A stretch of 25,593 nucleotides of DNA from a virus. The stretch lies in IMG/VR virus record IMGVR_UViG_3300021959_004739, positions 1 through 25,593 of that record, one strand, 5' to 3'. This document shows positions 2,986-23,543 of this stretch, one piece after another (positions within the stretch are counted from its first letter, which is position 1; every line of letters begins with the position of its first letter). The notes under the pieces are model-generated. The model did not search any database. It had not been told where the DNA came from and saw only the letters and a list, made by a program, of their open reading frames with translations. Both the position numbers and the translations under genes were made by a program.

Positions 2986-4059
2986 CTAGGATCTGACTGG
3001 ACGGAATATACCTGTCACACGTCCTCGAGACTGTGTCCATCCGCCTTTCCAGCTATTAGTAATCGTTCCACCCGATGGATTGTTATTAGTGGCACTCGCT
3101 TTATCACTTTGGTTACCGCCAACAAAAGAATAAACTCCTGGCGACGGAACAGTGTATATAAAGTTAACGTGACTGTAGTCCCAGACTACAATGTCACCCG
3201 GTTGACCATCTGATAGTGGTATAGGAACACCACCATATAAACTTGTTTTATCTCTAAAGTCATATGCTCTAGCACTTTGCATATATTTGTAACCTGTACG
3301 TTTTAGTACCCAATTACAAAATCCTGCACACCAAGGTGTTTGATCGTCTTGCCAATATGCCGTAGCCGGAAAGCCTAACTCTGACCATAAATTAAGAATA
3401 TTAGGATTTTTCCCTACAACTGCTGGCCTTGGATCTCCTCTAGGAGGAGTAAATCCTAATTCATCCCATTGATTATTATTAGCTTCTGCTAGTACTTGAC
3501 TTAAGAATCCTGGAATACCATCTGCTGCCGCTGTTGAATTTGCTGCACTTGCATCAACCAAGGCTTGTTCGTTTGTTCCTAAATCATCAACACCTGCTGC
3601 TGGAGCACCTTCATACCTTACTGGTACCTGATTCTCTGCAATAGTTCCGTTGGCTTGTCCACCACCTGTTGCACCTACATCCGGTGGGTTTTCAATTGCT
3701 TCTTGTATAACTGCATTGATTGCTGCTGCCTGTGCCGGCGAAAGTATAATAGGTGGTACATATCCTTCGTTGGCCCAAACATTGGGTGATCCTGTTTCTG
3801 CTGCATTAGCGACCCAACTTCCGTGTCCGCCAGTTGCATCGTTCTTACGATGAACAGGAATATTATTAATCCAAACACTTAATGAGCCGCCTGTAGCAGG
3901 GTCACCACATTTGGTGGTATCGCCTATACGTACAGTTTGTTCGTTATTAGTAAACACATCTGGAGAACCAACTGCGTATGGTTCTTGATGAAATGGATTG
4001 GGCGTAGGACTTGCATGTCCTTTGTGCTTGTCTACATTTGTTCTTACTACTTCTGGCAT
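2986..4059 (-). CDS. PAAR spike-tip protein fused to a CHAP-type peptidoglycan hydrolase
   Basis: The 357-residue protein has two parts. Residues 1 to about 100 form a PAAR-like domain (DUF4150 style) with GSP.VFTN, VRIGDTTKC and a repeated GSPNVWANEG block. PAAR cones sharpen the tip of phage and type VI secretion spikes. After a low-complexity linker rich in A, G and N, residues about 200-357 match the TIGR02594/CHAP amidase type. The catalytic Cys is in TPWCAGFCNW (Cys244), His in DYSHVNF (His297), and a polar GGNQ follows. The likely job is to pierce the outer membrane and cut peptidoglycan during DNA injection, replacing the lysozyme of T4 gp5. No Shine-Dalgarno sequence is visible; instead the octamer GATAAGTA sits five bases before the ATG. 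It lies downstream of the nrd genes on the same strand. Confidence 0.88.
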   Translation of the reverse strand: MPEVVRTNVDKHKGHASPTPNPFHQEPYAVGSPDVFTNNEQTVRIGDTTKCGDPATGGSLSVWINNIPVHRKNDATGGHGSWVANAAETGSPNVWANEGYVPPIILSPAQAAAINAVIQEAIENPPDVGATGGGQANGTIAENQVPVRYEGAPAAGVDDLGTNEQALVDASAANSTAAADGIPGFLSQVLAEANNNQWDELGFTPPRGDPRPAVVGKNPNILNLWSELGFPATAYWQDDQTPWCAGFCNWVLKRTGYKYMQSARAYDFRDKTSLYGGVPIPLSDGQPGDIVVWDYSHVNFIYTVPSPGVYSFVGGNQSDKASATNNNPSGGTITNSWKGGWTQSRGRVTGIFRPVRS

Positions 4060-16844: not shown

Positions 16845-17617
16845 TTTACGATGTCTATCATTTTACGCATCCAAGCATTGTGATCTGCTTGGTAAGTTTC
16901 GACTTGCTTGTTGTCCGGTAGTTCTAAACCGTCTCTTGCAAAGGCTTCAACAGCGTCAGCAACAAGTTCATCGTAGTTTGGTAACTTTTTAATAAAGTTA
17001 ACAATTGACTCTACTGATTCAAGTGTTGATGGTGTTGCCGTTTGACCTAATAGGACTTTAGCGATTTGGTTGGGGTCTTGTGATACCAATTCGTTAGTTT
17101 CTCTATCTTTTAGCCCTTCATTTGCTGACCATTTCATACCCTTGGTTTTTGCTATGCTGGAAAGGAGGATGTGTCGATGCATACCTTTATAAGGTGAGTT
17201 TGGTCCACTTCCCTGCAGGCTGAACTTCATCCAATCTGGATCACCAAACATAAAGTCTGTTTGCACAAAGCCGTTTGAATCATCCCCTTTGATTGGAGTT
17301 TTAAAGTGTACGTTAATGCCTGACTTACGTATCCACTCTTTAGCGTTTACCTCGCCGCCGATGTTATCTTGTACCCAAGCAAGAAGCGTAGCCTCTAAGT
17401 CTGCTTTTGTTGTACTTGAAACATCTACTGCAAGATCTAAATCGCCACTGGTATCTTTCTTACCAGTTGTACCTAACATATTGTCTGTGAGTTCTAAGTT
17501 TGTTATTCCTTCTAACCATTGTACAGTAGGTAGTACATCGCTCTTTGCAACCCTTACGGTTACTGGCTTACCTTCTGCATCTTTAAATATGTTGCCACCT
17601 TCTAAAAGTAGTGTCAT
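16841..17617 (-). CDS. Pol-beta-type nucleotidyltransferase-like protein, 258 aa
   Basis: The start is set at the ATG at 17617, one base after the stop of the upstream gene; a TTG nine codons earlier is less plausible. Residues 49-65 (GTTGKKDTSGDLDLAVD) form the nucleotidyltransferase signature with catalytic Asp59 and Asp61, and QTDFMFGD supplies the third acidic residue, Asp121. This is the minimal Pol-beta fold that moves NMP groups to RNA, proteins or small molecules. The N-terminus MTLLLEGGN contains LLE followed by G, which also fits a gp21-type cleavage site. The gene is coupled by overlap to a 48-residue protein and through it to the ligase-like gene. Substrate unknown. Confidence 0.78.
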   Translation of the reverse strand: MTLLLEGGNIFKDAEGKPVTVRVAKSDVLPTVQWLEGITNLELTDNMLGTTGKKDTSGDLDLAVDVSSTTKADLEATLLAWVQDNIGGEVNAKEWIRKSGINVHFKTPIKGDDSNGFVQTDFMFGDPDWMKFSLQGSGPNSPYKGMHRHILLSSIAKTKGMKWSANEGLKDRETNELVSQDPNQIAKVLLGQTATPSTLESVESIVNFIKKLPNYDELVADAVEAFARDGLELPDNKQVETYQADHNAWMRKMIDIVK

Positions 17618-17618
17618 G

Positions 17619-17879
17619 TTAGCGTTCTCGTTTCTTTGATTCAACGACCCGTTTGATTCCTCTATCGAATTTAGAAGAATCCGCGCCTTTTATAGAATTG
17701 ATAAATCTACGCTCCAGCTCAATGGCTGTTGTTTGATCATAATGTTTATGCATAGATTCAATCAAATGAATTGCTGAGTTAATAATATTAGTTGCACGGC
17801 TTTGGATCAGAGATTCTGTGTCTCTGCGATCTGCAATTTCGTTTAGCTCTTGTAAAATCGACCTTGTTTTAATTTTCAT
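17619..17879 (-). CDS. Hypothetical phage protein, 86 aa
   Basis: Small, charged, wholly helical protein (MKIKTRSILQELNEIADRR, then SRATNIINSAIHLIESMHKHYD, then a basic tail ending KKRER). Family not recognised. It is the first gene of the nucleotidyltransferase-like unit. A consensus sigma70-type promoter lies 48 to 76 bases upstream, with GTAAATAC between them. The next start codon is one base beyond its stop, giving translational coupling. Confidence 0.72.
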   Translation of the reverse strand: MKIKTRSILQELNEIADRRDTESLIQSRATNIINSAIHLIESMHKHYDQTTAIELERRFINSIKGADSSKFDRGIKRVVESKKRER

Positions 17880-17926
17880 CGTGTTTTCCTAAAATTACTA
17901 ACTGTATTTACCCTTTTATGTAACAA

Positions 17927-17955
17927 ATTATACAACAATGATTTACGACTGTCAA
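17927..17955 (-). promoter_or_regulatory. Perfect sigma70-type promoter at the divergence point
   Basis: On the minus strand TTGACA (17955-17950), exactly 17 bases, then TATAAT (17932-17927), a full consensus match. It drives the 86-residue gene and the nucleotidyltransferase-like genes downstream. With 2957-2985 it is one of two perfect matches in the window. Confidence 0.88.
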
Positions 17956-18058
17956 GAACTTTAATCCGTCAATTTATTTGCGGCGGACTGTTGCAAAAAT
18001 AGCATGACAGCCTTGCGCAAAAAACCGCTCTATTTAGGGCAGTAATGCTGTACTATTA

Positions 18059-18066
18059 TATAAATA
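18059..18066 (+). promoter_or_regulatory. Plus-strand late promoter TATAAATA
   Basis: A perfect late octamer, the only exact plus-strand copy found by eye. It directs transcription through the hairpin-rich leader and the microprotein operon that starts at 18263. Confidence 0.75.
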
Positions 18067-18069
18067 CAG

Positions 18070-18248
18070 GTGACAAAAGCGCAGGGTGGCGATCGAAACC
18101 CTCAAAGTTGTCAAAATATACATACAGACACCAGGAAAGACTGGGGCATTGTCCATGCCTTAAAAGTGATTGACGGGGACCAAAGGTTCACGCACCGCCG
18201 GGGAAGTTCCGGGGTATTGCTTTCCTCAAGCATCATTGAAAACTTAAC
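18070..18248 (+). ncRNA. Candidate structured leader RNA of the microprotein operon
   Basis: About 180 bases between the late octamer and the first ribosome site are more GC-rich than their surroundings and fold locally into a row of hairpins: GACAA/TTGTC enclosing AGGGT/ACCCT; CCAG/CTGG; GGCAT/ATGCC; GGACC/GGTTC; CCGGGG/TTCCGG; and TGCTT/AAGCA. No known riboswitch or self-splicing intron class is recognised. An open frame starting GTG runs through it, but its product lacks protein-like character. It could be a regulatory leader or a free small RNA. Confidence is modest because it rests on hand folding. Confidence 0.4.
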
Positions 18249-18262
18249 CAAGGAGAAGTAAA

Positions 18263-18442
18263 ATGGCAACTATGCTATTCAACGGCCTTGTGAGTTTACT
18301 TGGACACCCAAGCCCAACTAGGGCTTTCGAAAAAGAGATGCTCACTTACGCCAAAACAGAGTACGGAAACGATTGGCAATATGCCTATCACTACATGATC
18401 ACCCACAACGGTCGAGGACCACGCATGGGAGTGAATGCCTAA
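18263..18442 (+). CDS. Microprotein, 59 aa, first gene of the DUF1127-type operon
   Basis: Starts at an ATG with AAGGAG seven bases upstream, the best ribosome site in this operon. The product reads MATMLFNGLVSLLGHPSP, then EKEMLTYAKTEYGNDWQYAYHYM, and ends GRGPRMGVNA. The aromatic-rich central helix suggests a small folded protein. Family not recognised. The stop codon overlaps the next start (TAATG), so translation is coupled. Confidence 0.78.
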   Translation: MATMLFNGLVSLLGHPSPTRAFEKEMLTYAKTEYGNDWQYAYHYMITHNGRGPRMGVNA

Positions 18443-18654
18443 TGACTGTAGCAACATTATCACACACAACATGGAACTACACATGTAAAATTTGTAGTAT
18501 ATTAAGAAAAGCATTCTACCTAGCATTCGTAGGATTAATTGCATTCGGCGAGAGTGCAGGAAGAGCAAGAGCCGCAAACGAACTTGCACGTCAAGGATAC
18601 TACAAAGAAGCGAAAGCATTAATGTTAGACCATCCATGGAGGGACGAAAAATGA
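18442..18654 (+). CDS. Microprotein, 70 aa, with hydrophobic helix and GYYKEA motif
   Basis: The start at 18442 is chosen because it overlaps the previous stop. The product has CxxC (CKIC) at residues 15-18, a hydrophobic stretch (AFYLAFVGLIAFG) and a tail RARAANELARQGYYKEAKALMLD. The last element closely parallels AIRELRAHGYYKKAAEI in the 44-residue protein two genes downstream, so the two tails are probably related. Similar tails occur in small alphaproteobacterial proteins near DUF1127 genes, which is my recollection rather than a search result. It overlaps the next gene by ATGA. Confidence 0.78.
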   Translation: MTVATLSHTTWNYTCKICSILRKAFYLAFVGLIAFGESAGRARAANELARQGYYKEAKALMLDHPWRDEK

Positions 18655-18893
18655 TCAGTTTTAAAAGATTATTTGGAATGACTCCAGAACAAAAACTTGC
18701 TAAACGTACTATGAAAGAACTTAGTGCGTTATCAGATTACGAACTAAATGACATTGGCGTAAGCCGTGGAGAAATCTATTGGATTGCAAGTGAACCTGTT
18801 CGTGAACTTGTTAAAAGAGAAAACTATGAAGCAGGCGATCATTACCTTAGAGGTAAGTCTCATGCTACATGGAAGGGCAAGGCACATGCTTAA
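18651..18893 (+). CDS. DUF1127 domain protein, 80 aa
   Basis: The start at 18651 overlaps the preceding stop (ATGA). The central segment KRTMKELSALSDYELNDIGVSRGEIYWIA matches the DUF1127 core, whose hallmark is LSDxELxDIGVSRxxI. Small alphaproteobacterial DUF1127 proteins, such as CcaF1 of Rhodobacter, bind RNA and affect RNA maturation and turnover; others affect phosphate and carbon metabolism. Here the core is followed by about 30 extra charged residues ending KGKAHA. A phage copy could bias RNA metabolism in the infected cell (inference). It overlaps the next gene by eight bases. Confidence 0.85.
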   Translation: MISFKRLFGMTPEQKLAKRTMKELSALSDYELNDIGVSRGEIYWIASEPVRELVKRENYEAGDHYLRGKSHATWKGKAHA

Positions 18894-19020
18894 AAGATTT
18901 ATTAAAGCAATGGAATACAGAAGTTACTGTATGGCAATTCGCGAACTAAGAGCTCATGGCTATTATAAAAAAGCCGCAGAGATTACTGAGTTCAAGAACA
19001 ACATGTATCCGAGTTACTGA
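18886..19020 (+). CDS. Microprotein, 44 aa, with GYYKKA motif
   Basis: MLKRFIKAMEYRSYCMAIRELRAHGYYKKAAEITEFKNNMYPSY. The frame opens inside the end of the DUF1127 gene and is basic and helical. The AxRELxxHGYYKKA element repeats that of the 70-residue protein upstream, suggesting duplication of a small RNA- or protein-binding helix pair. Coupling by overlap supports translation. Function unknown. Confidence 0.72.
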   Translation: MLKRFIKAMEYRSYCMAIRELRAHGYYKKAAEITEFKNNMYPSY

Positions 19021-19021
19021 T

Positions 19022-19069
19022 ATGTGGCCTTACACCGAAGACGAACAAGATTGGGTTTCAGGAAAGTAA
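19022..19069 (+). CDS. Possible 15-residue peptide
   Basis: An ATG one base after the preceding stop encodes MWPYTEDEQDWVSGK and then a stop, ahead of the operon terminator. The acidic, tryptophan-rich sequence looks selected rather than random, and the position continues the coupled series, but so short a frame cannot be proved from sequence. Confidence 0.45.
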   Translation: MWPYTEDEQDWVSGK

Positions 19070-19080
19070 ATTGAAAATGA

Positions 19081-19106
19081 CAGAGCTGTCCGCCAAGACG
19101 GCTCTG
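19081..19106 (+). terminator. Bidirectional hairpin between convergent genes
   Basis: CAGAGCTGTC pairs with GACGGCTCTG (one G-U) around CGCCAA. It lies between the ends of the microprotein operon (plus) and the membrane protein gene (minus). The plus side lacks a T run and the minus side has only a short one (ATTTTC), so it may serve both transcripts imperfectly. Confidence 0.6.
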
Positions 19107-19131
19107 CCATAACTTAATGTGTTATAATATT

Positions 19132-19365
19132 TTACTTGCGATTATAGATATGATATAACACCCAAACAGCAACTAGACCAACTAAGCCCTGTGCAGATAA
19201 CGCTGTTATCATTCCAGTGATGTTGTCTACTACGCTGATGTTTGGCCAGAACGGAATGTTCTGTCCATTGAATAAGACTTCAAGCACGATACCTAAAGCG
19301 ATGAATGATACACCCACTTCAGTAATTGCAGCGGCCCAGCCTTTTACTTTATTTAAGATTTCCAT
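19132..19365 (-). CDS. Small membrane protein, 77 aa
   Basis: The start at 19365 is preceded by AAAGGAG nine bases away; a start twelve codons earlier lacks such support. The product has two membrane helices (about residues 10-31, around EVGVSFIALGIVLEVLF, and about 50-72, around SAQGLVGLVAVWVLYHIY) joined by the loop PFWPNISVVDNITG. I recall similar proteins in T4-like marine phages but cannot name a function. It is transcribed away from the 89-residue gene at 19584. Confidence 0.78.
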   Translation of the reverse strand: MEILNKVKGWAAAITEVGVSFIALGIVLEVLFNGQNIPFWPNISVVDNITGMITALSAQGLVGLVAVWVLYHIYNRK

Positions 19366-19512
19366 GTTGGTTATCTCCTTTTGTTTACTCACTCCACTCA
19401 AGCGTTGAAGTCAGTGTAATATTTAGGTGCATGGAGATAAGAGTAAAAACACCATAAATGGTTTGCGGCGCCTGTAACGCTGATCTTTGGCAAAGAAAAA
19501 TTATTAAATGCG

Positions 19513-19541
19513 TTGACAGAGATAAATAATAGTGTTACATT
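19513..19541 (+). promoter_or_regulatory. Promoter region of the 89-residue gene, with overlapping late octamer
   Basis: TTGACA (19513-19518), a 17-base spacer and TACATT (19536-19541) form a sigma70-type promoter, while GATAAATA (19521-19528) lies inside the spacer. A TCTTTG/CAAAGA inverted repeat about 20 bases upstream could be an operator. Confidence 0.65.
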
Positions 19542-19583
19542 ACTAATGTAGCATAACACACAAACACACAAGGAGAAAGACAA

Positions 19584-19853
19584 ATGTCATTAGACAAAAT
19601 CAAAGATGCACTACCTAAAGTGCAATTCAATAAAAACGGTTACGAAATTCGCACAGAAGTGTTAGATATGGCCAAACAATTTACAGAGTTTGAATACTCA
19701 CAGAAGTTTGTTGGTTGGGAAATCAGCGCAAAGCGAGACAAGGAAACTGGCCAAGTTGTTACCAAAGTTGATATGCCAGAAATCCCAGGTGCTAAAGAAG
19801 TCTTAGACACAGCCGAAGAGTTCTACAAGTTCGTAACAGGGACTTCAAAATAG
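19584..19853 (+). CDS. Hypothetical phage protein, 89 aa
   Basis: Starts MSLDKIKDALPKVQFNKNGYEIRTEVL with AAGGAG upstream. The protein is soluble, charged and helical with a central aromatic segment (FTEFEYSQKFVGWEISAKRD) and an acidic tail (AKEVLDTAEEFYKFVTG). I recall similar small proteins in marine T4-like phages without assigned function. It is followed by a terminator that lies just before hemF. Confidence 0.75.
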   Translation: MSLDKIKDALPKVQFNKNGYEIRTEVLDMAKQFTEFEYSQKFVGWEISAKRDKETGQVVTKVDMPEIPGAKEVLDTAEEFYKFVTGTSK

Positions 19854-19955
19854 AAAATTAATACACACAACAGAATAATTTCCTAATTACGGGATGAAGA
19901 TTATATAGAGAACGGCATAGCCTCAGATAATAGGAACATTACATTTGAAGTGGAG

Positions 19956-19986
19956 AAAGGGTAGCCAGGTTGCTACCTTTTCTTTT
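19956..19986 (+). terminator. Terminator or attenuator just upstream of hemF
   Basis: A 10-bp stem (GGTAGC/GCTACC flanked by A/T and G-T pairs) closes a six-base loop and is followed by TTTTCTTTT. It lies 21 bases before the hemF start codon, so it either ends the 89-residue gene or gates transcription into the hem operon. Confidence 0.85.
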
Positions 19987-20007
19987 GAGTACAACTTAAA
20001 TACTTCC

Positions 20008-20826
20008 ATGAACACAATGTATACTGAATGGTTTGCACAACTAGCACAGATCATAGAAGATAACATAAATGAAGTAGAAGCAAGATTCGCACCTAAGGAT
20101 CCTATTAAAATGGATGAAGGTGGACATTCTAGCAGAGAAGGCTGGATACAAACACACAAAGTTATACGTGGAAATGTATTCGAAAAAGGTACAGTAAATT
20201 ACTCTTGTGTAACAGGAGAGTTTGATCCTAGATTTGCAAAAGAGATTCCAGGTACAACTGATAACAATAGACAGTATTATGCCACAGGTATAAGTGTAGT
20301 ATTACACCCTACTAATCCTTGGGTGCCTGCAATGCATTTTAACACACGATATCTTAAAACACATGAGAAAGAATGGTTCGGCGGTGGTATGGATTTAACA
20401 CCTTGCTTGGATAATGAAACATTCAAGATTGGATATCATAGAGAGCTTAAAAAGGTCTGTGATTTGTATGATGCAACTTGGTACGACAAGTTTAGTAAAG
20501 CCTGTGATGAATATTTTTATTTGCCTCATAGAAAAGAAACAAGAGGCATAGGAGGATTGTTCTTTGAGTATTACGATCCTAAAGACATGGACTTTAAATT
20601 TGTAGAATGCCTGGGTATAAAATTTGCAGATGTAATGAGAACAACTGCAATCAATTATATGAACAACAACTACACAGATGAACATAAAGATATACAAAAG
20701 ATCAAACGTGGACGATATGTAGAGTTCAACTTATTATATGACCGTGGAACTAAGTTTGGTTTTAAAACAGGCGGCAACATGGAAGCAATATTAATGAGTT
20801 TACCGCCAGATGTGAGGTGGCCATGA
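20008..20826 (+). CDS. hemF: Coproporphyrinogen III oxidase, oxygen-dependent
   Basis: HemF converts coproporphyrinogen III to protoporphyrinogen IX using oxygen. From the ATG at 20008 the protein is 272 residues. This start puts the GNVFEKGTVNYS block at the usual distance from the N-terminus, whereas a TTG at 19945 would place the terminator hairpin inside the gene. Family motifs are intact: HPTNPWVPAMHFNTRY (His100, His110), WFGGGMDLTP (Asp129), HRKETRGIGGLFFEYYD and GRYVEFNLLYDRGTKFGFKTGG. It stops right after SLPPDVRWP, so it lacks about 25 C-terminal residues found in E. coli HemF, and that part is not encoded elsewhere nearby. There is no Shine-Dalgarno; CTTAAATA ends five bases before the ATG. 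It overlaps the next gene by ATGA. Confidence 0.95.
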   Translation: MNTMYTEWFAQLAQIIEDNINEVEARFAPKDPIKMDEGGHSSREGWIQTHKVIRGNVFEKGTVNYSCVTGEFDPRFAKEIPGTTDNNRQYYATGISVVLHPTNPWVPAMHFNTRYLKTHEKEWFGGGMDLTPCLDNETFKIGYHRELKKVCDLYDATWYDKFSKACDEYFYLPHRKETRGIGGLFFEYYDPKDMDFKFVECLGIKFADVMRTTAINYMNNNYTDEHKDIQKIKRGRYVEFNLLYDRGTKFGFKTGGNMEAILMSLPPDVRWP

Positions 20827-20900
20827 ACACTGGGATAGGCGCTTTAACTGCTGCTATCTTAGCATTCATTGCTTGGGTCATAAGGAAGGTTAGAAAATGA
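20823..20900 (+). CDS. 25-residue single-pass membrane peptide inside the hem operon
   Basis: MNTGIGALTAAILAFIAWVIRKVRK: a short polar start, a hydrophobic helix and a basic end that predicts an N-out, C-in orientation by the positive-inside rule. Its ATG overlaps the hemF stop and its stop overlaps the hemC start, both as ATGA, which argues strongly for translation. Function unknown; anchoring or regulating the heme enzymes at the membrane is a guess. Confidence 0.75.
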   Translation: MNTGIGALTAAILAFIAWVIRKVRK

Positions 20901-21718
20901 AGATAGGTGTCAGGGGAAGTAAACTAGCATTGGAGTACGCAAGTAGAGCAGCAGCTCTAATTAACAATGCTGAGATAGTTACAGTAACAACTGAAGCAGA
21001 AATTAATCCAGACACTCCTATATTAGAAATGGGTGGTAAGGGAGTATTCTGTAAAGCCATCGAACAAAAGTTAATAGACAAAGAAATTGATATTGCTGTT
21101 CACAGTTTAAAAGACTTGCCAAGAGACTCGGACGATATACTAGAAATATCAGCAGTGTTAAAACGTAACGATCCTAGAGATTGTGTAATTGGTAATCCTG
21201 ATAAGCCAGGAGCAAAGATAGGAACAGGTAGTCCTCGTAGAATTGCACAACTAAAAAAATTATATCCACAAGCAGAAATTATTCCTATTAGAGGAAATAT
21301 TGATACTCGCATTGCTAAAGTAGAAAGCGGACAGTATGATGCTATTGTACTTGCTGTTGCAGGTCTTGAAGCATTAAATTTACAAGACAAGATAACAAAA
21401 ACATTTTCAATTAAAGAAATGTTTCCAGCTGTTGGACAAGGAGTTATTGCATTACAAACAAGAAAGAAAAGTTCTGCAAGTAATTTATTATCAACATCTT
21501 CAGACCCAGATACATACAAGTGTGCAATGGCCGAACGCAAGATGCTAGAAGTCATAAACGGTGACTGCCATACTGCTGTTGGTTGCATATCTAGTATCGT
21601 TGGAGATTACTTAATGATGGAAGCTCACAACTTTGAAACTGATAAGTATAGTGAAGTAATAGGTAAAAAAGAAAAATACCTAGAACTAGGTGAGCAACTA
21701 GGAATAAAACTTATATGA
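20897..21718 (+). CDS. hemC: Porphobilinogen deaminase (hydroxymethylbilane synthase)
   Basis: HemC joins four porphobilinogens into hydroxymethylbilane. The 273-residue protein keeps the key residues: Asp73 in HSLKDLP (E. coli Asp84), the arginines of GSPRR and RGNIDTR, GQG in PAVGQGVIALQ, and the dipyrromethane-attachment cysteine in NGDCHTAVG (Cys224, aligned with E. coli Cys242). It is about 40 residues shorter than the bacterial norm, mostly at the C-terminal domain. It overlaps both neighbours by four bases. No HemD (uroporphyrinogen III synthase) is fused or adjacent, so host HemD must close the ring, or the product would cyclise to the unproductive I isomer. Confidence 0.96.
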   Translation: MKIGVRGSKLALEYASRAAALINNAEIVTVTTEAEINPDTPILEMGGKGVFCKAIEQKLIDKEIDIAVHSLKDLPRDSDDILEISAVLKRNDPRDCVIGNPDKPGAKIGTGSPRRIAQLKKLYPQAEIIPIRGNIDTRIAKVESGQYDAIVLAVAGLEALNLQDKITKTFSIKEMFPAVGQGVIALQTRKKSSASNLLSTSSDPDTYKCAMAERKMLEVINGDCHTAVGCISSIVGDYLMMEAHNFETDKYSEVIGKKEKYLELGEQLGIKLI

Positions 21719-22692
21719 ATGAAAAATTTAAGAATGCCTGCAATAGGGTAGAACAGTCTTGTCCTCCAATATGGATGATGAGACAGGCAGGAAGATATCA
21801 GCAACCTTATATGGAGATGAAAGAGCGTTTCACATTTGAGCAGATGTGTAAACTTCCAAGGGTAGCAGCTGATGTAGCAATGCTTCCAATTGATCAATTT
21901 GACTTTGATATTGCAATACTGTTTAGCGACATACTATTTCCTATTGAAGGATTAGGTGTGCCTTTAAAATTTGCACCAGGTCCACAGTTTGATTATTATA
22001 TCAATGAGGAAAACTATAGAGAACATAAAGATATTTCACGTGCAGTAGAACACATGGAGTTTCAAAAGGTTGCGGTTGCTGCAACTAGAGAGAAACTGCA
22101 TAAATCAAAAAGTCTAATAGGCTTTGTTGGTGGACCGTGGACATTATTAAACTACGCTACAGGTAAGAAGCCTAACATGGATTTAAAATGGAAGGCAGCG
22201 TATATGGAAGAAGTTATTGTTCCTGTGTTAACACGCAACATACATCTACAACTAGAAGCAGGTGCAGAGAAAGTTATGATACTTGACAGTGGTGTAGGTG
22301 ATATGAGCGAATCATTCTTTAAAACACATTACGTTAATATATTACAGCCACTAATACAAACTGATACAGGATATTACACACAGCATTTAAATTCAAGATG
22401 CTTACCTTCTTTGTATAGAATGGGATGGGCAGGAATAGGTATTGATAGTACTGTTGATATACATAGAACATTTAAAAAATATAAAGACGGATTTATCCAA
22501 GGTAACTTTGATGAGAAACTTATGATGTTGCCTAGACAGTATTTAAAAACAGAAATTAACGAATGGCTTGATGGTATGGAGCATGTTGATAGAACTGGTT
22601 GGGTATGTGGACTAGGACATGGCATACATAAAGAAACTCCAGAAGAAAATGTAAAATTGTTTGTGGATATGGTTAGGGAAAGATATTCATGA
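21715..22692 (+). CDS. hemE: Uroporphyrinogen decarboxylase
   Basis: HemE removes four carboxyl groups from uroporphyrinogen III to give coproporphyrinogen III. The 325-residue protein shows the full signature: PPIWMMRQAGRYQQPY (Arg23 and Arg27), FSDILFP (Asp72, the catalytic aspartate), GFVGGPWTLLNY and, near the end, GLGHGIHKETPEENV with the conserved His. Length is slightly below the usual 340-355. It overlaps hemC and hemB by ATGA. Together with host HemD it links the HemC product to HemF, so the operon runs the route toward heme or chlorophyll rather than siroheme or cobalamin, which branch before HemE. Confidence 0.97.
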   Translation: MNEKFKNACNRVEQSCPPIWMMRQAGRYQQPYMEMKERFTFEQMCKLPRVAADVAMLPIDQFDFDIAILFSDILFPIEGLGVPLKFAPGPQFDYYINEENYREHKDISRAVEHMEFQKVAVAATREKLHKSKSLIGFVGGPWTLLNYATGKKPNMDLKWKAAYMEEVIVPVLTRNIHLQLEAGAEKVMILDSGVGDMSESFFKTHYVNILQPLIQTDTGYYTQHLNSRCLPSLYRMGWAGIGIDSTVDIHRTFKKYKDGFIQGNFDEKLMMLPRQYLKTEINEWLDGMEHVDRTGWVCGLGHGIHKETPEENVKLFVDMVRERYS

Positions 22693-23543
22693 AACTAATA
22701 CAACCATACTTTATTAGTAATCAAGGTAACGGAGATGATTGGGTACTTGCATCTAAACAGTCTGTCCTTGGTAACGACAATCACCCGTGGTCAGTTAAGG
22801 GCGCAATAGATACTATCGGTAGAGATATTGCTCTTGGGGTTAAAGATATTTTAGTATTTGTTATGCCTGAAAGATCTGAAATGCCAGATTGGGATTTGAA
22901 TAAACGTGTTGTTAGCGAAATTAAAGCAGCATACGGAGATAAAGTAAACCTGCATGTTGATATATGTTTGTGTTCTACTACACTAGATGGACACTGTTGT
23001 TATCCTACTGATGCCGCAAAGACAGACGAACAACTATTCGAACAAGCAAGTGTTGTATATGAAGCCGGAGCAGATGTACTTGCACCTAGTGATTGTCAAG
23101 ATAATACTGTAAAAAATATTAAAGAACATATTAATAAAGTAGATGTAATGAGCTATTCAACTAAGTTTAGATCACAATTCTATGATGGCTTTAGACAAAC
23201 TATTGGAGTTGAAAAAGGTATACATAGAAGTTATCAATTAGATGTAAATGATAGAGAACTTGCTATTGCTAGAAGTGTAAAGTATTTTAATGACGGTGCT
23301 ACTAGTTTAATGGTTAAGCCTGGCATGACCAGCATTGATCTTATTATGCCTATTAAAGAAGCAACCAAGTATCAAGCACCTGTCGGTGTATATCAAACAA
23401 GCGGCGAATACATTGGCTTACAAAGAAACAGTTGGCTAGTTCCACAGATGTTAAAAGAAACGCATGATGTTTTTAAACGTGCTGGTGCTGACTTTATGAT
23501 TACTTACGGTGCTAGGGAATTATATAAACAGGCTGCTAACTGA
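22689..23543 (+). CDS. hemB: Delta-aminolevulinate dehydratase (porphobilinogen synthase)
   Basis: HemB condenses two 5-aminolevulinates to porphobilinogen. In the 284-residue product the metal site is the cysteine type: DICLC...GHCC gives Cys93, Cys95 and Cys103, the same spacing as the zinc cysteines of E. coli. Both substrate lysines are present: Lys159 in MSYSTKF and Lys210 in LMVKPGM, plus YQTSGEY. The protein is about 40 residues shorter than usual, chiefly at the N-terminal arm that helps octamer assembly. It is the last gene of the operon although it catalyses the first of the four steps. Its final 24 bases overlap the convergent prs gene. Confidence 0.95.
   Translation: MKLIQPYFISNQGNGDDWVLASKQSVLGNDNHPWSVKGAIDTIGRDIALGVKDILVFVMPERSEMPDWDLNKRVVSEIKAAYGDKVNLHVDICLCSTTLDGHCCYPTDAAKTDEQLFEQASVVYEAGADVLAPSDCQDNTVKNIKEHINKVDVMSYSTKFRSQFYDGFRQTIGVEKGIHRSYQLDVNDRELAIARSVKYFNDGATSLMVKPGMTSIDLIMPIKEATKYQAPVGVYQTSGEYIGLQRNSWLVPQMLKETHDVFKRAGADFMITYGARELYKQAAN

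Follow-up and report, generated by a model that had tools for sequence, protein, structure and literature searches.

What is a string of five very short, overlapping reading frames doing in a viral genome, and is it a set of genes at all? We asked this of positions 18263-19069 of the window, a 25,593-base IMG/VR virus record analysed over its full length. A preliminary description had seen here an operon of coupled microproteins including a DUF1127 member, taken as host-derived regulators re-used by the phage under a late-type promoter. From the comparisons below we judge that first observation right but understated, as the gene set and its coding status hold and a leader RNA, which had been missed, is the strongest feature of the locus. 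Uncultured marine phages appear to share a real operon in which coupled genes encode proteins some 15-90 residues long, one of them DUF1127, behind a conserved folded leader and a late-type promoter. The five-frame chain (59, 70, 80, 44 and 15 codons, joined by overlaps or one base) was confirmed by direct reading:

18250..18255, + strand: Shine-Dalgarno sequence AAGGAG of P1, read in the sequence
18263..18442, + strand: P1, 59 residues; family motif EKEMLTYAKTEYGNDWQYAYxYM; three predicted helices
18442..18654, + strand: P2, 70 residues; family motif AFGESAGRARAAxELxRxGYHxEAKALM; hydrophobic stretch and a long predicted helix
18651..18893, + strand: P3, 80 residues; DUF1127, with the C-terminal tail YEAGDHYxRGKxxATWKGKAHA
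18886..19020, + strand: P4, 44 residues; family motif MFKRFIKAMEYRSYCMAIRELRxxGYYKxAxEISEFKHxMY
19022..19069, + strand: Pa, 15 residues, MWPYTEDEQDWVSGK; microprotein with the motif MWPYT[DEQN][DE]E

P1 and P2 meet at TAATG with an overlap of 1 base, P2 and P3 overlap by 4 bases at ATGA, P3 and P4 by 8 bases, and P4 is separated from Pa by 1 base. Among 404 junctions between successive open reading frames in the related loci, 226 were of the -1 type, 56 of the -8 type and 28 of the -4 type, counts that lean towards short gaps because the chaining rewarded them; the P3-P2 junction, taken from genes called with protein-family HMMs and hence free of that bias, was -1 in 46 cases. TAATG starts are common (36 of 49 for Pa), which is consistent with termination-reinitiation. 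Directly 3' of Pa lies a GC-rich inverted repeat (19078-19110) that resembles, by eye, the end of a small frame in another contig (L057) and may be a candidate end of the operon. Intrinsic terminators and sigma-70 sites occur in the cassette region at about the number expected by chance.

Frames this short, read in a single contig, could be chance open frames in an intergenic region, and this is the first alternative to be weighed. The preliminary description would have taken a lack of conservation in related phages as refutation; the frames are present there, so that this objection fails. Median dN/dS was 0.38 for P1, 0.46 for P2, 0.54 for P3 and 0.30 for P4 (60 sampled pairs per family, restricted to pairs with a synonymous difference of 0.1-0.6). 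The Pa frame, known in 49 distinct DNA versions of 14-23 codons, varies almost exclusively at third codon positions, with an entropy of 0.30, 0.00 and 1.30 bits at positions 1, 2 and 3 of codons 6, 7, 8 and 10, none of which belongs to the motif by which these frames were found. Family conservation, dN/dS values under 1, stereotyped junctions and, in a frame of only 15 codons, variation at third positions together rule out chance frames, a reading we regard as practically untenable. It is well supported by these comparisons that P1-P4 and Pa are real genes under purifying selection.

The third frame had been assigned to DUF1127, and P3 matches PF06568 above threshold (E 1.5e-10; 41.1 bits against a gathering cut-off of 23.3; profile positions 11-37 of 37). 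P1, P2 and P4 have no match in Pfam or NCBIfam at E 1, and in PHROGs none but one weak match (P1, E 0.05), in searches that took in P1-P4, Pa being too short for them. The GYYK(E/K)A element said to be shared by the second and fourth frames is present as GYYKEA in P2 and GYYKKA in P4, and comparison of the two family profiles (probability 70%, E 4e-5, 26 columns) suggests more than a coincidence, short of proof of homology. The possibility that P2 or P4 is itself a divergent DUF1127 protein was considered and rejected, given no Pfam match at E 1 and hhalign probabilities of 0.6% (P2-P3) and 0.25% (P3-P4); the only resemblance seen, by eye, is an N-terminal YYCxFCD stretch in P2 and some DUF1127 proteins. 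The P1 family comprises 41 distinct proteins (model pLDDT 70.6) and the P4 family 37, with 9 invariant columns in 16 sequences; the model of P2 (pLDDT 76.8) places helices at residues 3-50 and 54-62. Comparison with solved structures gave no significant match for the P1, P2 or P3 families, and a fold search with the P2 model among viral predicted structures was uninformative (best E 0.37).

How widely this gene set is shared was examined in IMG/VR, where a DUF1127 query returned 42 viral loci with a P2 relative adjoining in 41 (in the exception, L035, the contig stops shortly past P3), and a P2 query returned 157 relatives from viral contigs (80 of them were retained); both counts include contigs recovered twice. 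Gene order varies, the commonest being P1-P3-P2-P4, and in some loci P2 is flanked on both sides by a DUF1127 gene. In 111 non-redundant loci whose frames were chained downstream of P1, slot 2 holds either a DUF1127 protein with the tail NxNLKGWV or a DUF3563-like protein (36 loci; Pfam E 4.2e-6 for one member). The position after P2 holds a DUF1127 protein with the tail YEAGDHYxRGKxVATWKGKAH, another small protein with the same tail, or neither, and the next slot is taken by P4 in 37 loci and by a hydrophobic peptide of 34 residues in 35. Tiny frames close the string, Pa in 65 loci, and in contigs other than the window another such frame, M[LI]DP[DN]H[TS]Y..EKKKGGK, some 20 codons long, lies 3' of P4. 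Single-helix peptides are among the exchangeable contents, and the same two C-terminal tails are found on small proteins that otherwise differ. These comparisons clearly point to a mosaic operon downstream of the leader, in which modules and tails are exchanged between frames.

The region upstream of P1 contains the following features:

18059..18066, + strand: T4-late-type box TATAAATA, read in the sequence
18071..18113, + strand: leader hairpin H0, as folded from the window leader, at what is presumably the 5' end of the mRNA
18125..18241, + strand: conserved leader RNA, model R1, whose training rows left this leader out (cmsearch, 120.6 bits, E 1.6e-24)
18131-18144, + strand: hairpin H1 of the R1 model
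18145-18159, + strand: hairpin H2 of the R1 model
18174-18192, + strand: hairpin H3 of the R1 model
18194-18215, + strand: hairpin H4 of the R1 model
18218-18232, + strand: hairpin H5 of the R1 model

The late-type promoter box that had been proposed upstream of the cassette is thus present as TATAAATA, and ATAAAT is conserved in the leaders of relatives: 66 of 71 in the non-redundant set have it 20-130 nt ahead of their first hairpin, as against 5.7% of random windows. With such a box upstream, the cassette has the mark of T4-type late genes, and its late transcription is putative. The leader, about 190 nt long, consists of the 5' hairpin H0, which in most leaders directly follows the box, and the five hairpins H1-H5. 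One result speaks against such a structure: the whole window leader folds no better than its own shuffles (z -0.30). For the H0 segment, z was -2.99 in the window, with a median of -2.23 over 65 leaders and 41 of the 65 below -2.

Support for the five-hairpin part comes from covariation. In a MAFFT alignment of 22 leaders without that of the window, picked for good alignment so that divergent leaders are excluded, the structure is paired in 96.8% of cells and 10 of 30 pairs have changed on both sides, with none of 500 shuffles reaching any measure. In a wider alignment of 74 matches (65 distinct), which is fitted to R1 and so leans towards its structure, compensatory changes occur in 24 of 30 pairs, no shuffle among 500 reaches any of five covariation measures, and sliding the pair partners by 1-3 columns lowers pairing from 97.6% to 32-41%. 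H3 is absent from some leaders. Purine-rich loops of GAWAGA type cap H1 and, in divergent leaders, H4. We discarded a kissing interaction between loops H4 and H5, judged by eye, as divergent leaders seem not to keep the complement. By its compensatory changes and its fixed place before a gene, the leader has the marks of a structured cis-regulatory RNA. Rfam gave no match near the cassette (window 17600-20100, E 5) and none touching the leader in five further loci (E 1). Among cultured phages, neither blastn with the leader of a relative (L059; E up to 1) nor a comparison of the whole 2.5-kb region returned a match.

The leader is also tightly linked to this gene set. Across the 87 of 124 sources covered, the R1 search gave 56 matches at E<0.01, one per source and directly upstream of the first cassette gene, and four further, weak matches up to E 1. 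Of 18 whole records, mostly chosen for length, 15 contain exactly one match and none elsewhere, and three contain zero. A DNA pattern drawn from the leader only recovered at least 119 contigs; among the matches listed, P1 follows the leader in 110 of 119 and P2 in 94, and the contigs without them stop within 119 nt (9 contigs, for P1) or within 543 nt (25 contigs, for P2). Among the sequences compared, then, the leader appears tied to this operon alone. No R1 match was found in G007, G008 and G010, whose loci show only the DUF1127-P2 pair, and phages of this kind indicate that the DUF1127 protein is not dependent on the leader.

A compact multi-hairpin leader whose loops and linkers are near-invariant could also suggest a metabolite riboswitch before an accessory operon. 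Riboswitch classes usually serve several genes; this leader stands before one operon only, as a rule with no transporter or pathway gene downstream, and it matches no known class in Rfam (the window and five further loci). We consider a metabolite riboswitch very improbable, although a glutamine riboswitch has been reported in the phage Melnitz (PMC9004378).

While the gene set, its coding status and the leader RNA are well supported by comparison, for the mechanism of the operon we can offer a hypothesis. We hypothesize that this is a late phage operon making small proteins by translational coupling from one mRNA, with a cis-regulatory leader and host-directed products, a reading we favor tentatively and hold at somewhat less than an even chance. 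The polycistron is probably regulated at its own leader. The position of H0 right after the late-type box suggests that, at the 5' end of the mRNA, it could protect an abundant late message. The H4/H5 region may pair with the ribosome-binding site of P1 and so set P1 translation; given the coupling of the frames, whatever limits initiation at P1 would then set the output of them all. The stretch that best complements the P1 Shine-Dalgarno sequence falls in this region, 30-69 nt 5' of the ATG, in 38 of 60 leaders; our own estimate, which uses only the length scanned, would put the expected share at about a quarter. In the other 22 it lies elsewhere, and Shine-Dalgarno sequences pair with many pyrimidine stretches; both points count against this pairing.

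The ligand of the leader would most likely be a product of its own operon, as we found no other gene behind this RNA, and the DUF1127 module is the first candidate because proteins of this group can bind RNA: CcaF1 binds RNA and aids the maturation of RNAs encoded alongside it (PMC12501420, PMC10253847). The leader is kept in contigs whose DUF1127 slot holds a DUF3563-like protein, which argues against DUF1127 as the sole ligand. Sensor kinases are also reported partners of DUF1127 proteins (PMC12501420), and membrane association as well as sensor-kinase contacts have been described for YjiS from Salmonella and E. coli (PMC11707872, PMC12501420), which suggests that the cassette proteins may act elsewhere than on RNA. 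The other microproteins, several of which have a hydrophobic or amphipathic N-terminal stretch, might target membrane or regulatory complexes of the host at a late stage of infection (RNA turnover, sensor kinases, respiration). RNA turnover as the target of the cassette, to which the preliminary description had linked the DUF1127 member, is possible and only partly supported.

A bolder proposal, which we rate as distinctly unlikely, would make the leader RNA and the interchangeable microproteins a single ribonucleoprotein switch and a new class of phage regulatory module. Here the GAWAGA hexaloops would be candidate binding sites for the operon's own products, the slots would swap DUF1127, DUF3563, P2-type proteins and single helices, the two shared tails would bring each to the same late-infection target, and the 15-residue protein would be a regular member.

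The genes that accompany the cassette raise another possibility, namely that the microproteins are membrane- or cofactor-linked partners by which the host keeps respiring and making ATP late in infection, with a leader that only serves high and stable expression. Elsewhere, genes of this kind lie in the operon or end it. A plastocyanin/azurin-family copper protein occurs in or at the end of the string (15 loci; PF00127 E 5.7e-16), a DoxX protein in 8 loci (E 3.9e-6) and a COX4-like peptide in 16, whose COX4_pro_2 match is weak and below cut-off (E 0.026); an ATP synthase subunit c gene is found once within a cassette:

L051 4580-5011: copper protein, apparently with a signal peptide, inside or behind the cassette (the copy that was scanned)
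L092 4532-4951: copper protein, apparently with a signal peptide, inside or behind the cassette
L113 4198-4419: ATP synthase subunit c gene, between P2 and P4 (PF00137 E 1.8e-12)

P2 itself has a hydrophobic stretch (median best 17-residue hydropathy value 1.73), and hemF, hemC, hemE and hemB stand in a row downstream in the window (20020-23543, + strand; Pfam E 3e-80 to 3e-51). These heme genes are, however, set apart from the cassette by an opposite-strand gene and one further gene, and most of the 111 chained loci lack the copper protein, DoxX, COX4-like and ATP synthase subunit c genes. Moreover, P1, P3 and P4 are not clearly membrane spanning, and a plain stabilizer would not require such conserved loops and linkers. 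Given its energy-themed neighbors, we treat a respiratory role as a serious rival, if on balance an unlikely one. Tetrapyrrole genes have been described in phages and connected with respiration in the infected cell (PMC11480375). In another contig (L032), a probable 5-aminolevulinate synthase gene, with PF00155 as its only Pfam match, lies near the cassette.

The late-type box and the recurrence of NxNLKGWV and YEAGDHYxRGKxVATWKGKAH on otherwise different small proteins would also suit late virion or assembly proteins, small particle parts whose shared tails serve as docking or packaging tags, and a virion structural protein gene (phrog_11854, E 7e-18) adjoins the cassette on the opposite strand. 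No member matches a structural family, however, and cassette content differs strongly between related phages, which leaves a role in the particle quite improbable. Directed towards the virion gene and divergent from the cassette is a 12-of-12 sigma-70-type site (TTGACA, 17, TATAAT; window 17927-17955, - strand).

The favored reading, a late, leader-regulated and host-directed operon, can be set against several known systems. In CcaF1-CcsR (CIN1) loci of Alphaproteobacteria, a small DUF1127 protein likewise shares a transcript with conserved RNAs (PMC10253847, PMC12501420). The RNAs there lie downstream of the DUF1127 gene and are released as sRNAs, whereas the phage RNA is an upstream 5' leader with no Rfam match, in an operon with other microproteins; the cassette is accordingly not a CIN1/CcsR-type locus. 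In Sinorhizobium meliloti, a DUF1127 gene is controlled through its mRNA leader, with modelled pairing between the ribosome-binding site and C-rich codons; that control is reported to need translation of an upstream frame and premature termination (PMC12218461), whereas the phage leader is a hairpin array in which informal inspection noticed no conserved upstream frame. YjiS is a chromosomal DUF1127 microprotein, and the available portions of the cited accounts mention no such operon or leader RNA (PMC11707872, PMC12501420).

A close cultured counterpart is in Methylophilales phage Melnitz (MZ577097), whose gp44-gp45-gp46 show the same order of P1-like, P2 and DUF1127 genes, with TATAAATA upstream and a terminal hairpin (by eye) as in the window. 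Melnitz gp45 is 46% identical to the window P2, while the match of gp44 to P1 is marginal (E 0.035), no R1 leader match was obtained, and neither P4 nor Pa was found in the 12 kb examined; all three genes are annotated as hypothetical, save for DUF1127. Among 50,697 phage records searched at E up to 1, P2 occurs only in four Melnitz isolates, beside a DUF1127 gene. The DUF1127 domain is also found in phages of Alphaproteobacteria, namely those of Sinorhizobium, Agrobacterium, Roseobacter and Celeribacter, and in six regions examined around such solitary genes P1, P2 and P4 do not adjoin.

The claim that the set is host-derived fits the DUF1127 part only and is unsupported as written for P1, P2 and P4, which belong to no Pfam or NCBIfam family; the DUF1127 domain, with DUF3563 in slot 2 of other contigs, accounts for the known families of the cassette, and DUF1127 is a family of bacteria. 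The search of bacterial genomes covered P2. In the GTDB species collection, a scan with one degenerate P2 pattern, which distant relatives could escape, found a single locus, beside DUF1127 and a family-B DNA polymerase. Of 244 genomes in the order of that match, one, the same bin, contains P2, in four copies, three of them adjoining DUF1127. The second copy lies on a contig with DnaB- and T4 UvsX-type genes and the third on one with a glycosyltransferase gene, so that two of the three DUF1127-adjoining contigs carry phage replication genes. The fourth stands alone:

L259 2839-3012: P2 copy between HxlR, citrate-transporter and EamA genes, a chromosomal-type context

P2 thus appears to be mainly viral in the sets searched, with one bacterial-type case. 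As to the phages themselves, genes neighboring the cassette in the window match jumbo myophages (such as PA5oct and Phosso), cyanophages and pelagiphages. T4-type capsid and portal genes occur in G008 and G010, which have no leader match, and in G002, which has the leader; the Gp23 and T4 portal families were each found in 3 of 18 records, the others being fragments or too divergent.

A literature search, with most subscription journals outside its scope, found no paper tying phages to a DUF1127 operon, none with the MWPYT motif in a small-gene context, and nothing on structured leader RNAs in marine phages. If our reading is correct, it would contribute a structured RNA family that is new and bound to a fixed operon, several families of microproteins with no counterpart in Pfam, NCBIfam or, apart from one weak match, PHROGs, and comparative evidence that viruses maintain a gene of 15 codons. 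It would also provide a system in which to ask whether DUF1127 acts on RNA or on proteins, as the domain sits behind a conserved RNA that is a possible target. More generally, the slot mosaic and shared tails suggest how phages might build late host-control kits from very small parts.

Three further features of the window were observed. An 89-residue protein (19584-19853, + strand) with no Pfam match above cut-off belongs to a family that recurs in 50 loci, at most 5 kb past the cassette. A permuted tmRNA with the tag ANNNFALAA (1513-1926, - strand) overlaps a tRNA-Trp prediction. Finally, a PAAR-motif protein is encoded at 2986-4059 (- strand), its C-terminal part giving a CHAP-like match just under the cut-off.
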